Assembly: GCF_028618695.1 (NCBI RefSeq)
Contig: NZ_JAQIVI010000501.1
Location: 1-9,950, forward strand
Direction: 5' to 3'
From: Natrinema soli
GTDB lineage: Archaea > Halobacteriota > Halobacteria > Halobacteriales > Natrialbaceae
DNA length: 9,950 nt
In this document: piece after piece, positions 1 to 9,950 of the stretch
How the letters are laid out: each line of letters opens with the position of its first letter
Position numbering within the stretch: the first letter of the stretch is position 1
Translations under genes and position numbers: made by a program
The notes under the pieces: model-generated
What the model was told of the DNA's origin: nothing
Database searches by the model: none
What the model saw: only the letters and a program-made list of their open reading frames with translations

Positions 1-438
1 CCGTCGCTCGAGTCGGTCCTCCGCGTCGACGCTCGAGTCGACCTCGACCGCGGCGTTGTCGGGTTCGACGGTCGCGACGAGGTCCGTCGAGACGCGGGCG
101 AACTCCTCGAGCGCGGCCGCGGGATCGGGGAGATTGATCAGGAGCGCCTGACAGACCACCAGGTCGAAGGTGTCGTCGGGAAACGGAAGCCGAACGGCGT
201 CGCCGGTTACGACCGGAACGTGTTCGTCCGCGATCGCGAGCAGGTCGGAATCCGCGTCGCAACCGATCACCTCGCCCGGCGACTCCGCCGCGAGGACGTG
301 GCTCAACTCGCCGGTCCCACAGCCCGCATCCAGAACCCGGTCGCGAGAGTCGAGGGCGAGCGGCTCGAGCGCGTCGCGGGAATCGGCCCACATCCCCTCG
401 CGGGTCCGACTGAGATAGGATTCGGAGAACTCGCGCAC
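1..438 (-). CDS. Class I SAM-dependent methyltransferase (partial, 3' end outside window)
   Basis: Reading leftward from a GTG at 438, 146 codons are open to the window edge, so the C-terminus is missing. The protein shows the Rossmann-fold methyltransferase signature: motif I VLDAGCGTG at residues 35-43, an acidic residue after strand 2 (GCDAD, Asp61), and GDAVRLPFPDDTFDLVVC at 79-96, the Methyltransf_11-like motif II/III region. These bind S-adenosylmethionine; the methyl acceptor cannot be told from sequence. The GTG start is preferred because a TTTTTA box lies 25 nt upstream (463-468), as for a leaderless transcript. An in-frame ATG at 393 would cut off residues that look like part of the family N-terminus (REFSESYLSRTREGMW). 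The frame is closed by TAG at 490-492. The gene follows nfo on the same strand after a 71 bp gap but has its own promoter-like box. Family assignment is firm, function is not. Confidence 0.88.
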   Translation of the reverse strand, partial: MREFSESYLSRTREGMWADSRDALEPLALDSRDRVLDAGCGTGELSHVLAAESPGEVIGCDADSDLLAIADEHVPVVTGDAVRLPFPDDTFDLVVCQALLINLPDPAAALEEFARVSTDLVATVEPDNAAVEVDSSVDAEDRLERR

Positions 439-462
439 GGACGGCGCTTCGAGCGTCTCGAG

Positions 463-468
463 TAAAAA
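463..468 (-). promoter_or_regulatory. TATA-like box of the methyltransferase gene
   Basis: On the minus strand this reads TTTTTA and ends 25 nt before the GTG at 438. That spacing fits a leaderless haloarchaeal transcript. It is within the short gap after nfo, so the methyltransferase may be transcribed separately from nfo. Confidence 0.5.
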
Positions 469-509
469 CGGGTCGATTTCTCGGATCCGCTACAGGGCTG
501 TGACGGCAG

Positions 510-1385
510 CTACTCGTCGCGAAGCTCTTTGACCCGCTGAATGTTCCACGCGAAGCCGCGGCCGTCCTCCGTCGGCGTCTCGAGCGCGAACGGCAGATCC
601 CGCAGTTCCGGGTGGTTCACGATCGCGCGCATGCCGTCCTCGCCGATGTAGCCCTCGCCGATGTGGGCGTGCTCGTCCTTGTGCGTGCCCACGTCGTGTT
701 TCGAGTCGTTGAGGTGGATGTACTCGAGGTGCTCGAGTCCGACCACGTCGTCGAAGCGGCCGACGGTCTCGTCGACGGCTTCGGGCGTCGTCAGGTCGTT
801 ACCCGCGACGAGCGTGTGGGCGGTGTCGATGCAGATGCCGATATCGGTCTCGGTGCGGTCGATGATCCCCGCGAGGTGCTCGAACTCGCCGCCCAGCTTG
901 GTTCCGCTGCCCGCGTCGGACTCGATGAGGATCCGAACGCCGTCGGGCACCTCGAGATCGTCGATGACGCTCGCGGCGTTGTCGAGCCCGCCCTCGACGC
1001 CCGCGCCGGTGTGGGCGCCGAGGTGGACGTTGACGTACGGAATCCCGAGCCGTTCGGCGGCGTCGAGTTCCGCCTGCATGCTCTCCATGGACTTCCTGCG
1101 GAGGTCGTCTTTCGGCGTGCAGAGATTGACGAGGTAGGCCGAGTGGATGACCCACGGGCCCTCGAGTCGGTCGTCGCTCGCTTCGCGGAAGCCCGCGGCC
1201 GCCTCGTCGCTGATCTCGGGCTGTGCCCAGACCTGCGGCGAGGTGGTAAACACCTGCCCACAGTTGCCGCCGAACGCGGTCTGGCGGTGAACCGCGTTTC
1301 GGAGATCGTCGTACGGCGGTGTTTCCTCGTCGGACGAGACGCGCGAACCGGAGATCGAAACGTGTGCGCCGACCTTCATCGTCAT
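510..1385 (-). CDS. nfo: Endonuclease IV (apurinic/apyrimidinic endonuclease, Nfo/AP endonuclease family 2)
   Basis: A 291-residue protein of normal length for endonuclease IV, a zinc-dependent TIM-barrel enzyme that cleaves the DNA backbone 5' of abasic sites in base excision repair. All nine metal-ligand positions of the E. coli enzyme can be matched by eye: His81 (VIHSAYL), His121 ([10 protein letters not shown]), Glu155 (ILIESDAG), Asp187 and His190 (CIDTAH), His224 (YIHLNDSK), Asp237 and His239 (HKDEHAHIG) and Glu269 (ALETP). The three family signatures are therefore intact and the enzyme should be active. The start at 1385 gives [10 protein letters not shown]; the ATG at 1379 (MKVGAHVS) is also possible, but TATA-like sequence at 1411-1420 fits 1385 better. 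The large opposite-strand reading frame across it (612-1535) is a GC-rich shadow. The methyltransferase follows 71 bp downstream. Confidence 0.96.
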
Positions 1386-1410
1386 GGATTCCCGTCAGTA
1401 CCGGGTCGTG

Positions 1411-1420
1411 ATAGGTATAA
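1411..1420 (-). promoter_or_regulatory. TATA-like promoter element of nfo
   Basis: The minus strand reads TTATACCTAT, with its left edge 26-31 nt upstream of the nfo ATG at 1385. Transcription would then start at or within a few nucleotides of the ATG. No Shine-Dalgarno sequence is seen before the ATG, which agrees with a leaderless mRNA. Confidence 0.45.
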
Positions 1421-1467
1421 CGGAGCGCCTCGAGTTCGGGCAATGTCTCCATACCGGCCGATAGACG

Positions 1468-1611
1468 TGCGGTGGCGCGTGCCGCGCTACGGTTCGCCAC
1501 TGGCAAACCGTCGCTCGAATCCGCGCGAGGGATGAGCGAGGGAAGTATGACCGAGCGAATCGGCTGGGGAGGGTGTGGAAATCCCTAAATGCCAGTATGA
1601 GAACCGGTGAC
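1468..1611 (+). repeat. Structured repeat unit, left copy of an inverted pair
   Basis: Reading on the plus strand, this unit has a 15 bp outer block (1468-1482), a 38 nt slot holding a hairpin, a 19 bp block (1521-1539), a 20 bp block containing GGCTGGGGAGG (1553-1572), then short blocks TGCCAG (1590-1595) and GGTGAC (1606-1611). The same blocks occur in the same order on the minus strand at 1655-1786. The hairpin in the slot pairs ACGGTT (1489-1494) with AACCGT (1506-1511), with a GCC/GGC continuation. From memory of haloarchaeal genomes, similar GGCTGGGGAGG repeats are widely dispersed, but I cannot search. A 61-codon minus-strand reading frame (1487-1672) lies in the repeat and is probably not a gene. 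Confidence 0.72.
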
Positions 1612-1654
1612 CGATTTTGAACAGATAGCTTATATCATACCGGAGTAAATAGCT

Positions 1655-1786
1655 GTCACCTGCTTCTGGCAACTAGGAATACCACGTCCTCCCCAGCCGA
1701 TTCGCTCACTACGTTCGCTCATCCCTCGCGCGGTGTTCTCCTGCGATTCACTGGTCGTTCATCGCAGGACAGCACGCGCCACCGCA
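1655..1786 (-). repeat. Structured repeat unit, right copy of an inverted pair
   Basis: This is the minus-strand copy of the unit at 1468-1611. Outer block 1772-1786 is a perfect 15 bp match, 1715-1733 a perfect 19 bp match and 1688-1707 a perfect 20 bp match, followed by CTGGCA (1666-1671) and GTCACC (1655-1660). The slot between the first two blocks is again exactly 38 nt but has unrelated sequence, and it contains its own perfect hairpin: TCCTGCGAT (1739-1747) with ATCGCAGGA (1761-1769), loop of 13 nt. The two units converge on a 43 bp AT-rich centre (1612-1654). With nfo ending its promoter at about 1420 and lplA ending at 1833, the pair fills most of this 447 bp gap. No target-site duplication was found. 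Confidence 0.72.
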
Positions 1787-1832
1787 GCAATCGTTCGAGC
1801 CCGTCTACGAGACGCCGGTCGATCGCCGACGG

Positions 1833-2669
1833 TCACTGGTTGTCCGCCTCGAGCACCTCCCGATTCCGAACCCACGCGTCACTGCCGAACTTCCGGTCGG
1901 CGAGGTCGCGAGCGGCCTCGAGTTCGCCATCTCGCCAGGTCGACTCCGCGGCGTCACACCAGTCTCCGAGTGCCCCCGCGATCGCGTCGACGGCTTCCTC
2001 GCGGCCGATCCCCCTCTCGTCACGGATACTCGTCACCCGATCGGTGAACGTCGATTCCGCGAGATCGGCCTCGAATACCCCCACGTGTTTCCGGGGCTCG
2101 AGGGCGTAACTGATCGACCCGTGCTGGATGACGACGTCGCGCTGGCGGTACTGAGCGTTGCCGCTGATCTTCTCTGCTTGCGCGCTCGCATCCGCAGGCG
2201 CGACGATGTCGTGTGCCGGGTTGATGTCCCGCAGATAGCACGAGGGCTGGTAGATCGCATCCTGTTCGGCCGACGCGAAGGCCGCGCCGACGCCCATCCG
2301 ATCGAAGGCCTCGAGAACGGGTTCGCAGAACAGTTCGTAACAGTCCATCAGGTTCCCCGGAACCTCGTCGGCGGGAGCCACGATCGTGTACGAAATATCG
2401 GCGTGTCGGTCGTGGTAGATGCCGCCGCCGCCGGTCTGTCGGCGGGTGACGTCGATCCCCTCGCGCTCGCAGAACTCCCAGTCGACCGTGTCGGCGTCCT
2501 GCCGGTACCCAAGCGAGAGCGTGCTCGGCTCCCACGAGTACGTGCGGACGGTTCGAACGTCGTCCTCGAGCGCCGTTCGCGCAGCGATCTCCTCGAGGGC
2601 CATCTGCGTCGCCCCGTCACGGGGCTCGTCGCGGATCAGTCGCCAGTCCCGATCGGACAGTGCCGTCAT
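1833..2669 (-). CDS. lplA: Lipoate-protein ligase A family protein (BPL/LplA/LipB fold)
   Basis: The product (278 residues from the ATG at 2669) belongs to the biotin/lipoate ligase superfamily, which attaches lipoate or octanoate to a lysine of E2 or GcvH lipoyl domains. Counted from the ATG, the lipoyl-binding motif RRQTGGGGIYHD is at about 76-87 and the active-site lysine is Lys167 in KISGNAQYR. The C-terminal part is shorter than the full accessory domain of bacterial LplA. The start is chosen by a GGAG Shine-Dalgarno-like sequence six bases before the ATG; an in-frame GTG at 2681 would add four residues. A TATA-like box lies at 2724-2727. The gene is divergent from rio2. Ligase, octanoyltransferase or amidotransferase activity cannot be separated by eye. 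A lipoylated partner is suggested by the E1 gene at the right edge of the window. Confidence 0.9.
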   Translation of the reverse strand: MTALSDRDWRLIRDEPRDGATQMALEEIAARTALEDDVRTVRTYSWEPSTLSLGYRQDADTVDWEFCEREGIDVTRRQTGGGGIYHDRHADISYTIVAPADEVPGNLMDCYELFCEPVLEAFDRMGVGAAFASAEQDAIYQPSCYLRDINPAHDIVAPADASAQAEKISGNAQYRQRDVVIQHGSISYALEPRKHVGVFEADLAESTFTDRVTSIRDERGIGREEAVDAIAGALGDWCDAAESTWRDGELEAARDLADRKFGSDAWVRNREVLEADNQ

Positions 2670-2675
2670 GTCCGA

Positions 2676-2727
2676 CTCCACGCGGACGAGGTGGAAAGTG
2701 ATTCCGACGGCACCGGCATTTCGTATA
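2676..2727 (-). promoter_or_regulatory. lplA promoter and ribosome binding site
   Basis: A TATA-like box (GCTATAC on the minus strand, TATA at 2724-2727) would place transcription start near 2698. GGAG at 2676-2679 then lies six nucleotides before the ATG at 2669. This is one of few genes here that seems to have a leader with a ribosome binding site. Confidence 0.4.
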
Positions 2728-2836
2728 GCACTGAAAGGTTTATTCGGGGCCGAAACGCGGTTTCGACCGTCTTCGAACGGGTACCTCGAGTCAGTTCACG
2801 TCACCTCGAGCGAGCATCGACACGCTCCCGACCGCG

Positions 2837-2910
2837 GTACGAAGCCGATGCCGCCGATCGGTCCAAGTACGAACGCCGATACCGCTGATCGTCCCCGAGT
2901 ACGAGCGCTC
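2837..2910. repeat. Tandem repeat of about 31 bp upstream of rio2
   Basis: Three imperfect units start with GTACGA at 2837, 2867 and 2899. Units one and two match at 25 of 30 aligned positions with two one-base gaps; the third is partial and runs into the rio2 promoter. The period of 30-32 bp is close to three helical turns. Confidence 0.55.
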
Positions 2911-2919
2911 GTCACGCCG

Positions 2920-2925
2920 TTTTTA
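2920..2925 (+). promoter_or_regulatory. TATA-like box of rio2
   Basis: TTTTTA ends 25 nt before the ATG at 2950, the same spacing as at several other genes of this window. No Shine-Dalgarno sequence precedes the ATG, so a leaderless mRNA is likely. A second promoter-like string, GAAAGGTTTATT (about 2733-2744), lies farther upstream and would give a leader of about 180 nt. Confidence 0.5.
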
Positions 2926-2949
2926 CGTACCCGGCGGCTAGCCACCCGT

Positions 2950-3858
2950 ATGGTGCGCAACGTCGCCGGGTTACTCCCGGAACTCGAGGCGGAGGACTTC
3001 TATCTCCTCTCGGGGGTCGAACAGGGGATGCGGTTCTCCGAGTGGGTCCAGCGGGAGAAGCTCCCGAAGTTCTCCGATCTGAGCGAGGAGGAGGTCGAGT
3101 ATCGGCTCGGGCGCTGTCTCGAGCGCGGACTGGTCGAGAAGAAAACGATCCAGTACGAGGGCTACACCCTCCAGTTCGAAGGCTACGATACCCTGGCACT
3201 GCGGGCGCTCGTCGAACAGGATACCATTTCCGAGTTCGGCTCGCCGCTGGGCGTCGGCAAGGAGAGCGACGTCTACGAGGTCAAGTCGTACAAGCCGCTG
3301 GCGCTGAAGTATCACCGCGAGGGCTATACGAACTTCCGGAAAGTCCACAAGGAGCGCGATTACACGTCTGAGAACGATCACGTCTCCTGGATGTACACCG
3401 CCCGAAAGGCCGCCGAGCGCGAACACGGCATCCTCGAGGAACTCTATCCCGACGTCGCGGTGCCACAGCCGATCGGCCAGAACCGCCACGCCATCGTGAT
3501 GGAGAAAATGGACGGCGTCGAACTCTCCCAGACCCGGCTCGAGGACGAGCAGGTGCTCGGGGTCCTCGATCTCCTGCTCTCGGAAGTCTCGCGCGCGTAC
3601 GCGAAGGGGTACGTCCACGCCGACATGAGCGAGTACAACGTCTTCGTCAACGAGGAGGGCGTGACGGTCTTCGACTGGCCTCAGGCCGTCCCGACGGACC
3701 ACGAGAACGCCGACGAGTTCCTCCGGCGCGATCTGACGAACATCGTCGGCTACTTCCGGCGCAAGTACCCCCAGCACGTCCCCGACGCCCTCGCGAGCGA
3801 CGATCTCGCCGAGGCGATCGCCGACGATTCGTTCGAGACGGTCGCCGACTTCGTCTGA
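2950..3858 (+). CDS. rio2: RIO-type serine/threonine kinase Rio2
   Basis: The 302-residue product is an archaeal Rio2 atypical kinase/ATPase, which acts on pre-30S particles late in small-subunit maturation. An N-terminal winged-helix region (about 1-90) characteristic of Rio2 rather than Rio1 is followed by the RIO domain. Visible motifs are the P-loop GVGKESDVYEV (101-111), the ATP lysine Lys120 (LALKYHREG), the catalytic HADMSEYN with Asp225 and Asn230, and metal-binding Asp242 in FDWPQ. Length is typical. The frame stays open upstream to 2419, but that stretch is antisense to lplA; the ATG at 2950 is chosen because the protein then starts MVRNVAGLLPELEAEDFYLL, as in Rio2, and a TATA-like box lies 25 nt upstream. 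A hairpin follows the stop codon directly. Confidence 0.96.
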   Translation: MVRNVAGLLPELEAEDFYLLSGVEQGMRFSEWVQREKLPKFSDLSEEEVEYRLGRCLERGLVEKKTIQYEGYTLQFEGYDTLALRALVEQDTISEFGSPLGVGKESDVYEVKSYKPLALKYHREGYTNFRKVHKERDYTSENDHVSWMYTARKAAEREHGILEELYPDVAVPQPIGQNRHAIVMEKMDGVELSQTRLEDEQVLGVLDLLLSEVSRAYAKGYVHADMSEYNVFVNEEGVTVFDWPQAVPTDHENADEFLRRDLTNIVGYFRRKYPQHVPDALASDDLAEAIADDSFETVADFV

Positions 3859-3881
3859 GACCCCTGATTTTCTGAGGGGTC
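3859..3881 (+). terminator. Hairpin directly after rio2
   Basis: GACCCCT (3859-3865) pairs perfectly with AGGGGTC (3875-3881) around a 9 nt loop that includes TTTT. It begins at the base after the TGA stop. The bases that follow are only weakly T-rich, so it may mark or protect the mRNA end rather than be a classic terminator. Confidence 0.45.
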
Positions 3882-4201
3882 GAGCTGGTTCTCCCCGATG
3901 TCGGAGCCGCGCGTCTCGACTCCGTCTACGGGTGACGGAGTGCAGGGTATCAGACGAGACTCCCGGAAACGCCAGTGAACGATGACGTTCACCGTGAAAA
4001 ACGCTCACCTCCCCGTTCAGTATGCGGCTCGCCTACCAGACGGCCTCGAGCAACGTTCTCGAAACCGATCGGTCTGCAAGCGTATTAGCGGAATACGGCC
4101 CCCCGTTCGGATCAATAAATTATATACTGATATATGAAATTCAGAGAGGCGTGATGATAGCCCGCTCGAGGAGCGACCGTTCGAAGCACCCGAAGAGCGA
4201 C
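3882..4201. other. Gap between rio2 and the membrane protein gene: two hairpins, an isolated SD-like site and an AT-rich patch
   Basis: No convincing gene is seen. Perfect hairpins are ACTCCGTC/GACGGAGT (3919-3926 with 3934-3941, loop 7) and GTGAACG/CGTTCAC (3975-3981 with 3986-3992, loop 4). On the minus strand GGAGGTGA at 4005-4012 is a full Shine-Dalgarno sequence, followed 12 nt later by a GTG at 3992 that opens 80 poor-quality codons running antisense into the end of rio2. A strongly AT-rich stretch with several TATA strings lies at 4111-4140; it could end transcripts of the leftward membrane gene, or be a promoter. Confidence 0.45.
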
Positions 4202-4933
4202 TCAGGCGGCCATCCCGGCGGATCCTTGTCGCGGCTCCGGCTCAGAGGGGTGCTCGAGGCCCCGAAGCTGGTCGTACGCGCGGGCCGTGGTCGCGATAAT
4301 GTACACCGTGACGACCGCGGCGACGACCTGCGTGAGGACGAGTCCCGCAGCACCGCCGAGCAGGAACGTCGGAATCGCGACGGTCGCGTTGACGGCGAGG
4401 CCGAGGACGACGACGGCGATCCCGAGGCCGAACAGGCGAAGGCGACTTCCACGGGTCAGCGCCCAGCTGCTGCGGAACGCCCGGACGAAGTTCTGATCCT
4501 CGACCGCGACGAACGCGCTCCAGTAGTAGAGGGTGACGAGGAGGAACAGTCCCGGCACGAGCAAGAAGACGCTGCCGGCGGCGACGAGTGAGACGAAGAC
4601 GATCGTCCCGACGAAGGCGTTGAGCGTGGCGGTGGCGATCTTCCGGCGGCGGAACTCGCGGGGGATCGTCTCGGTTTCGTCGGAGGCAAACGTCCGGAGC
4701 GCAACGATGGCGACAGCGATCGTCGCGAGCCCGATCGCGAACGAGAGCAGTCCGGTGAGGAGCCCAACGAGACCCGTGGTCAGCGTTACGCCGATGGCAG
4801 TCTCGGTTTCGACCGGGGCGACGGACGCGTTCAACAGCGCGAGGACGGCAAATACGGCGACGAAGACGAGTCCGTTTCGCTCGGTAGTGCGGGAGAACCC
4901 GTCGGTCATCGCGTCGATGATGTGAAAGACCAT
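4202..4933 (-). CDS. Six-helix integral membrane protein, related to GPDP-membrane-domain/DUF975-like proteins
   Basis: The 243-residue product is strongly hydrophobic, with about six predicted helices near residues 22-41, 46-65, 66-85, 104-123, 124-146 and 168-220 (the last stretch may be two helices). The segment LVPGLFLLVTLYYWSAFVAV followed by VEDQNFVRAFRSSWALTRG resembles the repeated motif of the glycerophosphodiester phosphodiesterase membrane domain and YciC/DUF975-like families common in haloarchaea. No catalytic domain is attached and the biochemical role is unknown. The ATG at 4933 is well supported: a TATA box ends 25 nt before it. An internal ATG at 4909 is possible. The C-terminal tail (from about residue 225) is polar. 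A perfect dyad overlaps its promoter, so it may be regulated. The opposite-strand frame at 4022-4591 is a shadow. Confidence 0.85.
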   Translation of the reverse strand: MVFHIIDAMTDGFSRTTERNGLVFVAVFAVLALLNASVAPVETETAIGVTLTTGLVGLLTGLLSFAIGLATIAVAIVALRTFASDETETIPREFRRRKIATATLNAFVGTIVFVSLVAAGSVFLLVPGLFLLVTLYYWSAFVAVEDQNFVRAFRSSWALTRGSRLRLFGLGIAVVVLGLAVNATVAIPTFLLGGAAGLVLTQVVAAVVTVYIIATTARAYDQLRGLEHPSEPEPRQGSAGMAA

Positions 4934-4957
4934 AGGTGTAGTATGCGGTCGAAGTAC

Positions 4958-4973
4958 ATATAGTAATCATTAC
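4958..4973 (-). promoter_or_regulatory. TATA box and overlapping dyad upstream of the membrane protein gene
   Basis: On the minus strand CTATAT (4958-4963) ends 25 nt before the ATG at 4933. The perfect dyad GTAATGATTAC (4963-4973) sits just upstream, over the position where transcription factor B would bind. A protein bound there would block initiation, so this is a candidate operator. Confidence 0.5.
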
Positions 4974-5062
4974 ATATATCTGGGAAACAGACATTTACAG
5001 GGCCGTGAACGATCTAAACGACATATCTGAACAGTCGTTCTTGTAGACTAAATTAGCACTCG

Positions 5063-5141
5063 AGTAAAAGATGGATGTCCCGGGAGCGAGCCGGCGATGC
5101 AAACGTGACTCGCAGTGCGGCGTTCGTCGCGCCGCCGAGTC
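5063..5141 (-). terminator. Bulged GC hairpin and T-rich site downstream of the protease gene
   Basis: GACTCG (5107-5112) pairs with CGAGTC (5136-5141), and inside it GCGGCG (5117-5122) pairs with CGCCGC (5130-5135) around a 7 nt loop, with a 4 nt bulge on one side. The structure begins 10 nt after the protease stop codon on the minus strand. A T-run (CTTTTA at 5064-5069) follows about 35 nt later. Transcript end or 3' stabiliser is an inference. Confidence 0.35.
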
Positions 5142-5151
5142 GCGTCCGGTG

Positions 5152-6690
5152 CTATTCGCTACTGCTCGGCGCGATCTCGATTTCGTCGAACGTCGCGAAG
5201 TCGCCCGTCTCGGCGCGGACAACCGCAGCGTGGGCGTCGACGTATCCCGCGCCGACGGATTCCGCAGTGTAGGACTCGAGCCGTCGTTCGTCGGCGGTCG
5301 CCTCGAGCGTCACGAGCACGTCAATCGGGTCGGGCGCGTCGTCGGTTTGTCCCTCGAGAGCGGCGTCGTAGACTAACGCGGCGCAGCCGGCGGTGACGGG
5401 ACAGGACATGCTGGTGCCGGACATGGGGCCGTAGTAGAGCGCTTCGTCGGGTGTGGTGAGGTTCAACGCGTCGTAGGGATCGAGCGTGCTCGTTACGTCT
5501 TCGCCTTTGGCGGCAACGCCGTTCCGGTAGACGCCCAGCGGCCCGTCGATCTCTTCTTCGGGGGATCCCTCGTGGAACGCGGTGAGGTTTTCGTAGGCCG
5601 CTCCGCGGTCATAATTATCGGCGTCGTACGAGCCGTCCTGCGGACGGCCACGCGAGGAGAAATCCGCGACGGCACCCTCGTCATCGGTGGCCGCGACGCC
5701 CAGAACGTGCGGGGCCGTCGCGTACTGGTTCAGCGTTCCCGCATCGGGGCCGTCGTTGCCCGCCGAGAAGACCGGGAGGAGCCCCGCCTCGTGGGCGTGC
5801 CACGTCGCGACGTTGACGGGATCGTCGGGGACGAACGAACGGTCGTCCTGTGCCGGTCCGTACGAGTTCGAGACCACCTGAACGTCGTGCTCTCCCTCGC
5901 GCTGTCGGCGGAGCAGATCGTCGTACGCGGCGACGATGAACACGATCGACAGCCCCAGCCCCGTCGCGTACATCGTCAGATCGGCGTCCGGAGCCCCGCC
6001 GGCGTACTCGCCGTCGATCCGGACGCCGGTCCCGCCGACGCTGCCCGCACAGTGGGTCCCGTGACCGCTCGCGTCCGTGTCGACACCGCCGACGTCCTGC
6101 CACCAGAGCGGGTCGTCCTGAACGACGGGGACTCCAACGTACTGGTAGTTCGCCGCGACGTTCGCCTGCAGATCGGGGTGGGACCCGTCGATCCCTGAAT
6201 CGATGAGGGCGACGTGAACGTTATCGCCGGTGTAGGGCGTCTCGAGACCCTCGCCGGCCTGTACGGCGTCGGCGTTCGCGTCTTCCCGGGCGTCGTCGTT
6301 GTGGTACTCGAGGTCGTAGTTCGACGAGACGTACCGCACCGCGTCCCAGCCGGCGACGGTCTCGATGAGCGATCCCGGGAGTTCGGCGTAGCCGATCGGA
6401 AGGACGTCGAAGCCGACCGCAACCGCGACATCGAGTGCCTCGAGTCGGACGAGGTCCGCGGTCGACTCGAAGACGATCAGCACCTCCTGAAGGACGTCGC
6501 TCTCGAGGTCGAGGTCGTCGTCGACGAGCGTGTCGCCGACGGTCACCACTCCCTCGAGCGCGTCGCCGACGAGAGTCCCTTCGAGCCCAGCAGCGGTTCC
6601 GGAGAACGCGACGGTACCGGCGACGCCGGTTCCGAACGCCTCGAGGACCGTTCGACGAGTCGGCCGGGTCGTGGGATCGTCGTCAGTCAT
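5152..6690 (-). CDS. Tat-exported subtilisin-like serine protease (S8 family, halolysin-like core)
   Basis: The 512-residue product is a secreted subtilase. Its N-terminus has a twin-arginine signal (TRRTVLEAF, Arg12-Arg13, then a weakly hydrophobic stretch ending near AAG at 33-35), which is the usual export route for folded proteins in haloarchaea. A propeptide-like region covers about 60-130. The catalytic triad is Asp164 (ALIDSGIDG), His210 (GHGTHCAG) and Ser427 (SGTSMSCP), with oxyanion Asn312 (SAGNDG). The domain ends near residue 495 and is followed by only a short tail, so the C-terminal extension of classical halolysins is absent. The ATG at 6690 has a GGTGA ribosome binding site six nucleotides upstream (6697-6701). 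It overlaps by four bases a possible 70-codon frame upstream. It likely degrades extracellular protein; the substrate is unknown. Confidence 0.95.
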   Translation of the reverse strand: MTDDDPTTRPTRRTVLEAFGTGVAGTVAFSGTAAGLEGTLVGDALEGVVTVGDTLVDDDLDLESDVLQEVLIVFESTADLVRLEALDVAVAVGFDVLPIGYAELPGSLIETVAGWDAVRYVSSNYDLEYHNDDAREDANADAVQAGEGLETPYTGDNVHVALIDSGIDGSHPDLQANVAANYQYVGVPVVQDDPLWWQDVGGVDTDASGHGTHCAGSVGGTGVRIDGEYAGGAPDADLTMYATGLGLSIVFIVAAYDDLLRRQREGEHDVQVVSNSYGPAQDDRSFVPDDPVNVATWHAHEAGLLPVFSAGNDGPDAGTLNQYATAPHVLGVAATDDEGAVADFSSRGRPQDGSYDADNYDRGAAYENLTAFHEGSPEEEIDGPLGVYRNGVAAKGEDVTSTLDPYDALNLTTPDEALYYGPMSGTSMSCPVTAGCAALVYDAALEGQTDDAPDPIDVLVTLEATADERRLESYTAESVGAGYVDAHAAVVRAETGDFATFDEIEIAPSSSE

Positions 6691-6899
6691 CCGTCGTCAC
6701 CGCGAACGGGTTCGTCCCTGTCATCGGTGAGCCAGTGTGGCGCCTGCGCGGCGCGGGCGAACGGCTGACCGGACGGCTGTGGTTCGTCTCGGCTGCTGCT
6801 CGAGGCAGCGACGAAGCCGGAGGCGGGCAAATCCTGCTGGTCTCGGCAATCATCGTTACTAATGGTTGCATCGTCTCTTGATCCGAGACTGTCCTCCAC
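6687..6899 (-). CDS. Possible small ORF overlapping the protease start (doubtful)
   Basis: From a GTG at 6899, 70 codons end in a TGA that shares ATGA with the protease start, the usual arrangement for translational coupling. The product is acidic and rich in Asp, Ser and Ala, with no motif I recognise. The second half uses mostly G or C at third positions (about three quarters), but the first half does not. The AT-rich TATA-like patch at about 6910-6918 would start transcription near 6885, inside the ORF, which speaks against the GTG. It may instead be the protease leader. I leave the call open. Confidence 0.22.
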   Translation of the reverse strand: MEDSLGSRDDATISNDDCRDQQDLPASGFVAASSSSRDEPQPSGQPFARAAQAPHWLTDDRDEPVRGDDG

Positions 6900-6918
6900 G
6901 AATCAGTTGAAAAATATT
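6697..6918 (-). promoter_or_regulatory. Protease leader: TATA-like patch and ribosome binding site
   Basis: The minus strand carries AATATTTTT at about 6910-6918, the only clear TATA-like site before the protease gene, and GGTGA at 6697-6701 six bases before the ATG. If this promoter is used, the mRNA has a leader of nearly 200 nt, unlike the leaderless genes nearby. Confidence 0.35.
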
Positions 6919-7067
6919 GTGATAGTCATAACAGTGGATTGATCCGTGACCCTCATATTCTGCTTCCGATTCACTGACCTGCTGAGTGGGAGCGAACCGG
7001 TGGGAATCGGTCTCGACGATGAAACTATCGATCCGATCCAATTTCTCGAAAGACGGATAATGTGAGC
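6919..7067. other. Non-coding part of the protease / membrane protein intergenic region
   Basis: No gene is supported here. The only structure seen is an inverted pair CCGATTC (6966-6972) and GAATCGG (7004-7010), enclosing a small CACT/AGTG hairpin (6972-6975 with 6985-6988). It separates the divergent promoters of the protease and of the gene at 7099. Confidence 0.3.
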
Positions 7068-7074
7068 ATTAAAC
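7068..7074 (+). promoter_or_regulatory. TATA-like box of the membrane protein gene at 7099
   Basis: ATTAAAC ends 25 nt before the ATG at 7099 and no Shine-Dalgarno sequence is seen, so a leaderless transcript is likely. Confidence 0.45.
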
Positions 7075-7098
7075 ACGCACGCATCCGTACTACAACCC

Positions 7099-7629
7099 AT
7101 GAGTGAAAATAGCAAACAAACCCTCGACAGGGTCGGCGTATGGGGAGGTGGCATCACGGGCGGACTGGTCGCCGGGATCGCCATGGGACTGGTTCTCCAC
7201 CTCGGCGGGAACCAGATCGAGTTGCTCGGCGGGCTCGCGACGGATCCCGGGACGGCAGCCGGCGTCGGCTGGACGATTCACCTGATGATTAGCATCGCGT
7301 TCGGGCTACTGTTCGCCGTGATCGCCTCGAGGTCGCTCGTCCAGCAGCTGGTCACCTCGTTCGGCGATTACGTCATCATCGGACTGGCCTTCGGTGCGGT
7401 CATCGGGCTCTTCGCCGGCGGCGTCGTGTTTCCGCTGGCGATGGAACGGGCCGGCGTCGCGGCATTGCCGCTGCCGTTCCTCCCCGTTTCGGGAGCCACG
7501 GCGGAGCTCTTCAGCGCGCTGGTGTTCGGCCTCGGTCATCTCGTCTACGGGCTGGTCCTGGGAGCCGTCTTCGCGACGGTCAACGGAATTACGCCCGGCG
7601 GCGTGCGCGAGCGCGTCGCGGTGCGATAG
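7099..7629 (+). CDS. Four-helix membrane protein with internal duplication, function unknown
   Basis: The 176-residue product has four likely transmembrane helices near residues 15-35, 56-76, 90-114 and 136-162, a short polar N-terminus and a basic C-terminal tail. The helices are rich in glycine and alanine with GxxxG-like packing. The two halves look duplicated: the second helix of each contains a His-Leu pair in a similar setting (His61 in WTIHLMISIAFGLLFAV and His147 in GLGHLVYGLVLGAVFAT). It recalls small haloarchaeal membrane proteins of unknown role, but I cannot name a family with certainty. The ATG is fixed by a TATA-like box 25 nt upstream. The gene stands alone between the divergent protease and rpl15e. 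Reverse-strand frames over it are shadows. Confidence 0.8.
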   Translation: MSENSKQTLDRVGVWGGGITGGLVAGIAMGLVLHLGGNQIELLGGLATDPGTAAGVGWTIHLMISIAFGLLFAVIASRSLVQQLVTSFGDYVIIGLAFGAVIGLFAGGVVFPLAMERAGVAALPLPFLPVSGATAELFSALVFGLGHLVYGLVLGAVFATVNGITPGGVRERVAVR

Positions 7630-7693
7630 GTCGACGCGATAGGCGGGCGCTCACCCGTCTCGCCGGCACCGTTCCGCATCGGAGTTCGAAGCC

Positions 7694-7700
7694 CTTATAC
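7694..7700 (+). promoter_or_regulatory. rpl15e promoter
   Basis: CTTATAC preceded by TTCGAAGCC resembles a haloarchaeal BRE plus TATA box. Transcription would start near 7724, leaving a leader of about 120 nt before the ATG at 7848, long for a haloarchaeal gene. Confidence 0.5.
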
Positions 7701-7737
7701 TCGAGAGTTGGGTAGGTTCGGTAGACTCGCTGGTTCG

Positions 7738-7842
7738 CGCGGGCATCAGCGGGCACCTGTACGACGCGGTGTCACAGGTCGGGATGTGATCCGCGGGGCA
7801 CGCGCCCCGGTCGGGATTGAACCACGCAACGCCCGCGGGTGA
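7738..7842 (+). promoter_or_regulatory. Structured 5' leader of rpl15e with ribosome binding site
   Basis: By eye the leader folds into a three-stem shape. The closing stem is CGCGGGC (7738-7744) with GCCCGCG (7831-7837). Inside are ACCTGT (7755-7760) with ACAGGT (7774-7779) and CGGGGC (7794-7799) with GCCCCG (7804-7809). The sequence GGTCGGGAT occurs twice, at 7777-7785 and 7809-7817, each at the 3' side of a hairpin. The closing stem ends directly at the ribosome binding site GGGTGA (7837-7842), five bases before the ATG. This could couple leader folding to translation, but no such leader is known to me. Confidence 0.4.
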
Positions 7843-7847
7843 ATACA

Positions 7848-8438
7848 ATGGCACAAAGCTTCTATTCCCACATCAAGGACGCATGGAAGGACCCCGACGA
7901 CGGCAAGCTCGGGGAGCTACAGTGGCAGCGCAAGCAGGAGTGGCGCGAGCAGGGCGCGATCGAACGGATCGATCGCCCGACGCGACTCGATAAGGCGCGC
8001 GAACTCGGCTACAAGGCGAAACAGGGCATCATCGTGACCCGGGTCTCGGTCCGCAAAGGGACCGCCCGGAAACAGCGACACAAGGCCGGTCGGCGCTCCA
8101 AGCGCCAGGGTGTCAACCGCATCGGGCGGCGCAAGAACATCCAGCGCATCGGCGAGGAGCGCGTCTCCCGGAAGTACCCCAACCTGCGCGTGCTCAACAG
8201 TTACTGGGTCGGGGAAGACGGCTCGCAGAAGTGGTTCGAGATGATCCTCGTGGATCCGAACCACCCCGCGATCGAGAACGACGACGATCTCAACTGGATC
8301 TGCGACGACAACCACACGAACCGCGCGTTCCGCGGACTCACCAACGCCGGCAAGTCGAACCGCGGCCTCAACAACCGCGGCAAAGGCGCAGAGAAGGTCC
8401 GTCCGTCCAACAACGGCGGTAAAGGCCGCGCGAAGTAA
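7848..8438 (+). CDS. rpl15e: 50S ribosomal protein L15e (eL15)
   Basis: The 196-residue product is the archaeal/eukaryotic large-subunit protein eL15, which binds 23S rRNA. It begins MAQSFYSHIKDAWKDP and carries the family core with KARELGYKAKQGIIVTRVSV, the very basic RKGTARKQRHKAGRRSKRQG and GRRKNIQRIGEER, then RKYPNLRVLNSYWVGEDG, and a Gly/Asn/Lys-rich tail ending NNGGKGRAK. Length is normal. A further upstream ATG at 7839 is in frame, but it is not the start because the ATG at 7848 gives the conserved MAQSFYSH N-terminus and has GGTGA five bases before it. The gene appears monocistronic, with a promoter at 7694-7700, a long leader and a T-run at 8472-8476 after the stop. Confidence 0.97.
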   Translation: MAQSFYSHIKDAWKDPDDGKLGELQWQRKQEWREQGAIERIDRPTRLDKARELGYKAKQGIIVTRVSVRKGTARKQRHKAGRRSKRQGVNRIGRRKNIQRIGEERVSRKYPNLRVLNSYWVGEDGSQKWFEMILVDPNHPAIENDDDLNWICDDNHTNRAFRGLTNAGKSNRGLNNRGKGAEKVRPSNNGGKGRAK

Positions 8439-8451
8439 CGCGGACAGTCAA

Positions 8452-8481
8452 CGCAGCCGATTTCACGTCGATTTTTCTGCG
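8452..8481 (+). terminator. T-run and weak hairpin after rpl15e
   Basis: CGCAG (8452-8456) can pair with CTGCG (8477-8481), and TTTTT (8472-8476) lies inside. Archaeal termination depends mainly on T-runs, so this site 34 nt after the stop is a plausible end of the rpl15e mRNA. Confidence 0.4.
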
Positions 8482-8552
8482 ACTCGAGTCGAGAGCGATC
8501 GTGCCGAGCGTGCAGTCACCTTCCCAACGACCCCACAGCAGCGCCGAGCGCC

Positions 8553-8587
8553 GGCCACGCGATGGCCGAGACGGGCACTAAGTGGCC
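8553..8587 (+). promoter_or_regulatory. Promoter region of the E1 gene with a dyad
   Basis: A weak TATA-like string ACTAAG (8577-8582) ends 24 nt before the ATG at 8606. Just upstream is the dyad GGCCA-CGCGA-TGGCC (8553-8567); GGCCAC (8553-8558) can also pair with GTGGCC (8582-8587) across the TATA position. Either could be a regulator site; support is by eye only. Confidence 0.3.
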
Positions 8588-8605
8588 CACCGTCGTACCA
8601 GCGAT

Positions 8606-9950
8606 ATGCCGCGCTCTCAGGTCGCCGCGTTCTCGATCGATCGCGTCCAGGTGCTCGATCAGGAGGGGCGGGTCGACGAGTCCCTCGAGCCCGAAATCGA
8701 CGACGAGCGCCTGCTCGAGTGGTACCGGACGATGAAGCGATCGCGGCGACTCGACCGGCGGGTGATCGCCCTCCAACGACGTGGCGAACTTGGGACGTTC
8801 GCGCCCGCGACGGGACAGGAGGCCGCCCAGGTCGGAAGCACCGCGGCGCTCGACGAGACCGACTGGACGGTGCCCGCGTTCCGCGAACATCCGTCGGCGC
8901 TGGCCCGCGGCGGGTCGGCTCAGGAAATTATCGAGTACGGGATGGGGCTCGAGGAGGGCGGGGAGCCGCCCGAGGACGTACCGATGATGCCGCCGTCGAT
9001 CGCCGTGGGGACTCAGCCGCTCCACGCAGCCGGAATCGGCTGGGCGGAGTCGATGAACGAGACGGAGTCGGTCGCGCTCACCTACTTCGGGGACGGTGCG
9101 ACCAGCGAGGGCGAGGTGTACGAGGCGATGAATCTGGCCGGCGTCTACGATGCCCAGACCGTCTTCTTCTGCCAGAACAACCAGTACGCGATCTCGACGC
9201 CGCTGTCGAAACAGACGCGGGCCGCGACCCTCGCCCAGAAGGCCGTCGCCGCGGGAATCGAGCCGATTCAGGTCGACGGCAACGATATCTTGGGCGTCTA
9301 CGCGGTTACGAAGGAAGCGCTCGAGCGCGCTCGGCGCGGCGTGCCGACGCTGATCGAGGCGACGACCTACCGGCGCGAGATGCACACGACGGCGGACGAT
9401 CCCTCCGTCTACCGGACCACCGAGGAAGAGGAGTCGTGGGAGCCGCTCGACCCGATTCTGCGGTTCGAACGCTACCTCCGAGAACGCGGAGTTCTCGACG
9501 ACGACACAATCGACTCGATCGAGTCCGAGATCGAAACGGATCTCGAGGAGTCGCTCGAGGCGGCCCGGGAGACGGAAGCGACCGCCGAGCCGGTGGACAT
9601 GTTCGATTACGCGCACGCGGAACGACCACCGTATCTCGAGCGCCAGCGCGAGGCGTTCGTCGCGAACGACGGGCACACGGTCGCGCCAGCCGAGGGGAGC
9701 CAGCGAGGTGACGGAGGGTCATCGGCGGCGGACGCGGGCGCTAGTGACGGGAGCAGTGCTAGCGAGACGGCGGAAGCCACTGAGGCGGATCTCGAGGACA
9801 CCGACCGACTGAACATGGTCGAAGCTATTCGGGAGACGCTGCACGCCGAACTCGAGCGCGACGACGACGTGCTCGTCTACGGCCAGGACGTCGGCGTCGA
9901 CGGCGGCGTCTTTCGGGCGACGCAGGGCCTCCTCGACGCCTTCCCCGGAC
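8606..9950 (+). CDS. 2-oxoacid dehydrogenase E1, fused alpha and beta subunits (partial, 3' end outside window)
   Basis: From the ATG at 8606 the frame is open for 448 codons to the window edge. Residues 1 to about 352 are an E1 alpha subunit of the pyruvate/branched-chain 2-oxoacid dehydrogenase family: GTFAPATGQEAAQVG (63-77), then the thiamine diphosphate motif from GDGATSEGE (162-170) to NNQYAIS (191-197), and HTTADDP (260-266). Without a stop, a Gly/Ala/Ser/Asp/Glu-rich linker (about 356-400) leads into the start of an E1 beta subunit (RLNMVEAIRETLHAELERDD and LVYGQDVGVDGGVFRATQGLL). These subunits are usually separate genes, so this appears to be a fusion. An ATG at 9815 is internal to the beta domain and lacks a ribosome binding site. 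The enzyme decarboxylates a 2-oxoacid and hands the acyl group to lipoyl-E2; the substrate is not clear. E2 and E3 genes are expected downstream. Confidence 0.9.
   Translation, partial: MPRSQVAAFSIDRVQVLDQEGRVDESLEPEIDDERLLEWYRTMKRSRRLDRRVIALQRRGELGTFAPATGQEAAQVGSTAALDETDWTVPAFREHPSALARGGSAQEIIEYGMGLEEGGEPPEDVPMMPPSIAVGTQPLHAAGIGWAESMNETESVALTYFGDGATSEGEVYEAMNLAGVYDAQTVFFCQNNQYAISTPLSKQTRAATLAQKAVAAGIEPIQVDGNDILGVYAVTKEALERARRGVPTLIEATTYRREMHTTADDPSVYRTTEEEESWEPLDPILRFERYLRERGVLDDDTIDSIESEIETDLEESLEAARETEATAEPVDMFDYAHAERPPYLERQREAFVANDGHTVAPAEGSQRGDGGSSAADAGASDGSSASETAEATEADLEDTDRLNMVEAIRETLHAELERDDDVLVYGQDVGVDGGVFRATQGLLDAFPG

Follow-up and report, generated by a model that had tools for sequence, protein, structure and literature searches.

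Passages of a previous study (PMC8305020) state that haloarchaea encode several paralogs of E1, the 2-oxoacid decarboxylase, most of them without an identified substrate, and that they oxidize pyruvate and 2-oxoglutarate by ferredoxin-dependent enzymes. For Haloferax volcanii, the same passages list oadhAB1-3, for which pyruvate and 2-oxoglutarate were excluded as substrates, as well as oadhA4; going by this gene listing, the H. volcanii paralogs consist of separate A and B genes or of an A gene alone. The pyruvate dehydrogenase E1 of Geobacillus stearothermophilus (1w85, 3duf) is also built of separate alpha and beta chains and has a dedicated E2 (1w85 title; passages of PMC2663715). Here, we analyse an open frame of Natrinema soli which, like the H. 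volcanii genes, encodes a haloarchaeal E1 but, unlike them, carries E1 alpha and E1 beta in a single chain. The frame lies in a stretch of 9,950 nucleotides, referred to as the window (NCBI RefSeq assembly GCF_028618695.1, contig NZ_JAQIVI010000501.1, positions 1 to 9,950 of the forward strand).

Fused E1 proteins as a kind are already known, and the N. soli gene is a separate haloarchaeal instance that stands alone. A database search scored 3016 proteins at E ≤0.001; among the 120 of these that were listed, single chains containing all three domains of such fusions (E1_dh, Transket_pyr and Transketolase_C) are numerous. Many of the listed proteins are fusions of about 690-730 amino acids, some named Acidimicrobiia or Actinobacteria, which bears out the remark in the initial annotation, made from the sequence alone, that fused forms occur in some bacteria. 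They share with the N. soli gene the order alpha-linker-beta in one chain. No haloarchaeal E1 alpha-beta fusion was found in the titles and abstract openings searched, a coverage outside which most subscription journals lie.

A single open frame joins E1 alpha and E1 beta

From ATG 8606, the frame runs stop-free for 448 codons (8606-9949, forward strand) and then off the window end, with the GDG motif at 9089, ATG 9599 and ATG 9815 all in frame, as initially read. The initial annotation had described the end of E1 alpha, a linker and the beginning of E1 beta; the linker and the beta start stand, but the whole of E1 alpha is present rather than its end only, so that the frame spans the full alpha domain, a linker of 49 residues and, before the window ends, 48 residues of E1 beta. 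The longest version of the frame opens upstream, at GTG 8582, but ATG 8606 is preferred because all 17 aligned fused proteins begin with MPR, which matches it. The features of the gene are as follows.

8606..9949 (+): fused E1 alpha-beta gene, 5' 448 codons, open frame; full-length relatives have 702-730 amino acids
8606..9658 (+): E1 alpha domain, residues 1-351, by Pfam E1_dh and TIGR03181; aligned to 1w85_A residues 20-361
9089..9181 (+): GDG...NN motif, residues 162-192, which we take to be the thiamine diphosphate motif; G162, D163, G164, N191 and N192 are invariant in 17 aligned rows
9113..9115 (+): Glu 170, in the place of 1w85 alpha Asp180 by alignment; Glu in 16/17 fused rows
9383..9385 (+): His 260, equivalent of 1w85 alpha His271 by alignment; His in 17/17 fused rows
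9659..9805 (+): linker, 49 residues; relative P0002 is predicted to be disordered at 361-386
9806..9949 (+): start of E1 beta, residues 401-448, with the Met at 9815 lying within the first conserved block
9884..9886 (+): Gln 427, in the place of 1w85 beta Glu28; Gln in 17/17 fused rows and 5/20 split rows

Pfam E1_dh covers residues 41-324 of the window protein (269.3 bits), and TIGR03181, the pyruvate dehydrogenase E1 alpha equivalog, residues 14-350 (425.1 bits, above the cut-off of 411.35). E1 beta sets in near residue 401. Transket_pyr is recognized from residue 402 with 22 bits, under the cut-off of 27, because only 45 residues of the domain lie inside the window; the complete beta part (Transket_pyr and Transketolase_C) is present in the relatives P0002-P0017. 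In the predicted fold of P0002, both halves match the G. stearothermophilus E1 (1w85, 3duf). This prediction used a 117-row alignment, an earlier run on 17 rows of close relatives having been poor (predicted local distance difference test score, pLDDT, 45.4).

The fusion is conserved within a haloarchaeal family

The comparison with E1 proteins of related haloarchaea proposed in the initial annotation revealed a conserved, haloarchaeal fusion. A protein search recovered 16 full-length fused relatives (702-730 amino acids), each containing E1_dh, Transket_pyr and Transketolase_C; over the whole length of the window protein, 15 of these (P0002-P0016) are 74-89% identical to it and P0017 is 59% identical. 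Among 125 genomes of the family to which the nearest genome belongs, 19 carry the gene as a single uninterrupted frame of 702-718 amino acids, with at least 77% identity to P0002. Named carriers include Natrinema versiforme, N. ejinorense, N. salsiterrestre, N. zhouii and Natronorubrum texcoconense. In a class-wide sample of 391 genomes the fusion was found in 16, all of them from that same family.

Nonsynonymous divergence (dN) is far below synonymous divergence (dS) in both the alpha and the beta part in 6/6 pairs compared (e.g., dN 0.016 and dS 0.19 for alpha against locus L092). For the linker, the same comparison with L092 gives dN 0.12 and dS 0.30, and in one pair (L098) linker dN exceeds dS. 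Thus, purifying selection acts on both the alpha and the beta part, and the linker drifts yet keeps the frame.

The fusion arose within a two-gene haloarchaeal lineage

The nearest non-fused relatives are pairs of alpha and beta genes (21 pairs), 59-65% identical to P0002 in alpha and 61-68% in beta, in line with the initial statement that haloarchaeal E1 subunits are usually encoded by two adjacent genes. At least 23 of the 125 family genomes carry a split pair of this lineage. Pairs such as those of Halegenticoccus soli (L014), Halomarina halobia (L015) and Halorussus amylolyticus (L016) belong to the same lineage and likewise have no E2 found nearby, but differ from the fused gene in that alpha and beta are encoded separately and in different frames. 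The frames of alpha and beta differ in all 22 split pairs considered (the 21 and the basal pair L149), so fusion needed a change of frame in addition to loss of the stop. For 9 of these 22 pairs a candidate start of beta could be located, and in 8 it is an ATG giving an 8-nt overlap with alpha.

Trees and residue counts were based on 17 fused rows; five of the loci from the 19 fused genomes (L096, L099, L103, L104 and L105), duplicate named loci and the split loci L119, L120, L121 and L129 were omitted, and bacterial rows were thinned for the trees. The concatenated tree (42 rows) places all 17 fused rows together in a single clade nested in the split lineage (support 86/94, not starred). In the quick tree (100 rows), the fused rows and the split haloarchaeal pairs share a starred branch (98, Shimodaira-Hasegawa-like approximate likelihood ratio test, SH-aLRT), and 22 sampled fused proteins from elsewhere, as well as 4 of a second haloarchaeal type, fall into separate clades. 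P0017 joins the other fused rows on that 86/94 branch of the concatenated tree but not in the quick trees. The fusion thus arose inside an otherwise two-gene haloarchaeal E1 lineage, independently of the other fused E1s sampled.

The second haloarchaeal fused type (L125, L141, L142 and L143) is about 43% identical, occurs in 4 of the 391 class genomes and, unlike the N. soli gene, has an adjoining E2 in 3 of its 4 loci. Its separate placement indicates that E1 alpha and beta were fused repeatedly, by these trees at least twice within haloarchaea. A further copy of this type in genome G094 (L126) is seemingly split over two frames. No genome of the 125 contains both the fused and the split form of the first lineage (19 fused and at least 23 split among the matches listed; hypergeometric 0.015), a result that is no more than suggestive because the genomes are related. 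The nearest genome also encodes an E1 alpha paralog with 51% identity (L002; G001:C1:1979716-1980741, reverse strand), with no beta match listed nearby, which recalls H. volcanii oadhA4.

Chromosomal site and loss of the gene

The site of the fused gene is marked by its upstream neighbour.

7839..8438 (+): ribosomal protein L15e gene, rpl15e (PF00827)

The fused gene lies 0.15-2.4 kb from rpl15e in 18/18 fused genomes examined. Where no intact copy exists (20/20 genomes), the gene next after rpl15e encodes a universal stress protein. Between these two genes, G024, which belongs to the 20, retains a short remnant of the beta end (L171, 4039-4182; 48% identity, query 654-701). The nearest genome, G001, was examined apart from the 20 and has, in the same interval, kept 27 codons from the gene's beginning together with part of its 3' end (L118, ~8540-8664). 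These remnants are signs of loss in relatives and show the gene to be dispensable between close species.

A gene resembling lipoate-protein ligases (PF21948) lies at 1836-2681 on the reverse strand of the window, some 6 kb away from the fused gene. A link between the two was considered and rejected: the nearness is not specific, occurring with and without the fused gene, and in 21/22 genomes lacking the fusion the ligase and rpl15e are within ~16 kb on one contig (on different contigs in G060). Two further open frames of the window, 4205-4933 (reverse strand) and 7099-7626 (forward strand), are rich in hydrophobic residues by eye and had no Pfam match at 0.001.

A putative single-chain E1 acting with a distant E2

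With E2 and lipoyl-domain queries, no match was found in the flanks of 7/7 fused loci or of 23/24 split loci of the lineage. The one weak lipoyl match, at the split locus L145 (44 residues, E 1.6e-5), was judged spurious, as the beginning of a stop-to-stop query frame can overlap the adjacent beta gene. The nearest E2 is at least 417 kb away on the same contig in 14 of the 19 fused genomes and on another contig in the remaining 5 (for a gene in pieces, only one was counted), and PF00198 (E2) was matched in 36/36 genomes searched. Genomes G077, G078 and G079 have one E2 apiece, next to their other E1, and in the basal relative L149, E2 adjoins the E1 pair. As neither an E2 nor an E3-complex gene lies beside the fused E1, there is no dedicated complex to which the suggestion in the initial annotation, that fusion would change assembly of the E2-bound complex, could apply. 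The catalytic residues beta E59, beta H128 and alpha H271 (1w85 numbering) are shared with the G. stearothermophilus E1 and kept in 17/17 fused rows, although only alpha H271 is visible inside the window; alpha H271 and beta H128 are kept in 20/20 split rows as well.

We consider the protein to be a single-chain E1 (2-oxoacid decarboxylase) of the alpha2-beta2 class that uses the E2 and E3 of another operon, and put the probability of this reading at roughly 65%. The analysis establishes that the frame is continuous and conserved, that a relative has the predicted fold, that catalytic residues are kept and that E2 is not linked but present elsewhere; the pairing of chains, the substrate and the docking on E2 in trans are what we infer. 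Two such chains, each with alpha and beta held together by a presumably disordered linker, would probably associate as a counterpart of the alpha2-beta2 tetramer, and thiamine diphosphate would sit between one alpha and one beta domain. The enzyme would then decarboxylate a 2-oxoacid and hand the acyl group to a lipoyl domain, an acceptor favoured because the residues for lipoyl acylation are kept. As no E2 is linked, the likeliest partner would be the E2/E3 that these genomes encode in a separate E1-E2 operon, and the fused E1 probably depends on this distant operon. The name pyruvate dehydrogenase is a database label. Several points weigh against this assignment: no E2 was found in the flanks of the fused loci, the gene is dispensable, the window ends at residue 448, only 48 residues into beta, and in the fused lineage Gln replaces beta E28 and Glu replaces alpha D180 of G. 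stearothermophilus. The empty flanks, in fused and split loci alike, and the two substitutions would also fit a stand-alone thiamine enzyme that works without E2 as a decarboxylase, a carboligase or by direct electron transfer to an acceptor. Such an enzyme is, however, less readily reconciled with alpha H271 and beta H128, the lipoyl-acylation residues, being kept in every fused and split row, and with E2 genes elsewhere in every genome searched, and we regard it as unlikely.

The frame itself might be read differently, given that the initial annotation named a hidden stop or frameshift, as well as a separate beta subunit starting in the linker or at 9815, as observations that would speak against a fusion. 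A sequencing or assembly artefact masking a stop or frameshift between two genes is contradicted for the lineage: the fusion is not a sequencing error because 19 of the 125 family genomes carry the same gene uninterrupted, as do the named records. Across the window and 18 fused genomes, the linker measures 33-49 residues, with lengths differing by whole codons, and the 19th genome (G120) likewise has one frame, so that an artefact confined to N. soli is scarcely credible. Initiation at ATG 9815 or within the linker, yielding an additional separate beta subunit, draws on the presence of a start codon at the position of ATG 9815 in all 18 fused genomes aligned and on an additional in-frame start codon within the linker in 5 of these 18. 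Yet the ATG 9815 codon falls within the first block of conserved beta residues: the beta protein of split pairs, L122 for example, starts with MAERLRM, six residues ahead of the Met matching ATG 9815, and the window codon at this split beta-start position is Asp. Moreover, G120 has Val at the position of 9815, and the window linker contains no other in-frame start, making a second product from an internal start quite improbable.

Several fused proteins of 702-711 amino acids are filed in databases as plain 'subunit alpha', an annotation trap in which the beta half may go unnoticed. With named Natrinema genomes encoding it, this single-chain E1 lacking a linked E2 is a handy protein for tests of substrate and of E2 docking in trans, and nature provides a comparison among relatives with the gene, without it or with only a remnant. 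More speculatively, and with little confidence, the lineage may have shed its tie to a dedicated E2/E3 in two stages, as an orphan alpha-beta pair to begin with and later as a self-sufficient single chain beside rpl15e, in which case the changes at alpha D180 and beta E28 may uncouple its two active sites and allow the enzyme to serve several complexes or an E2-free reaction.
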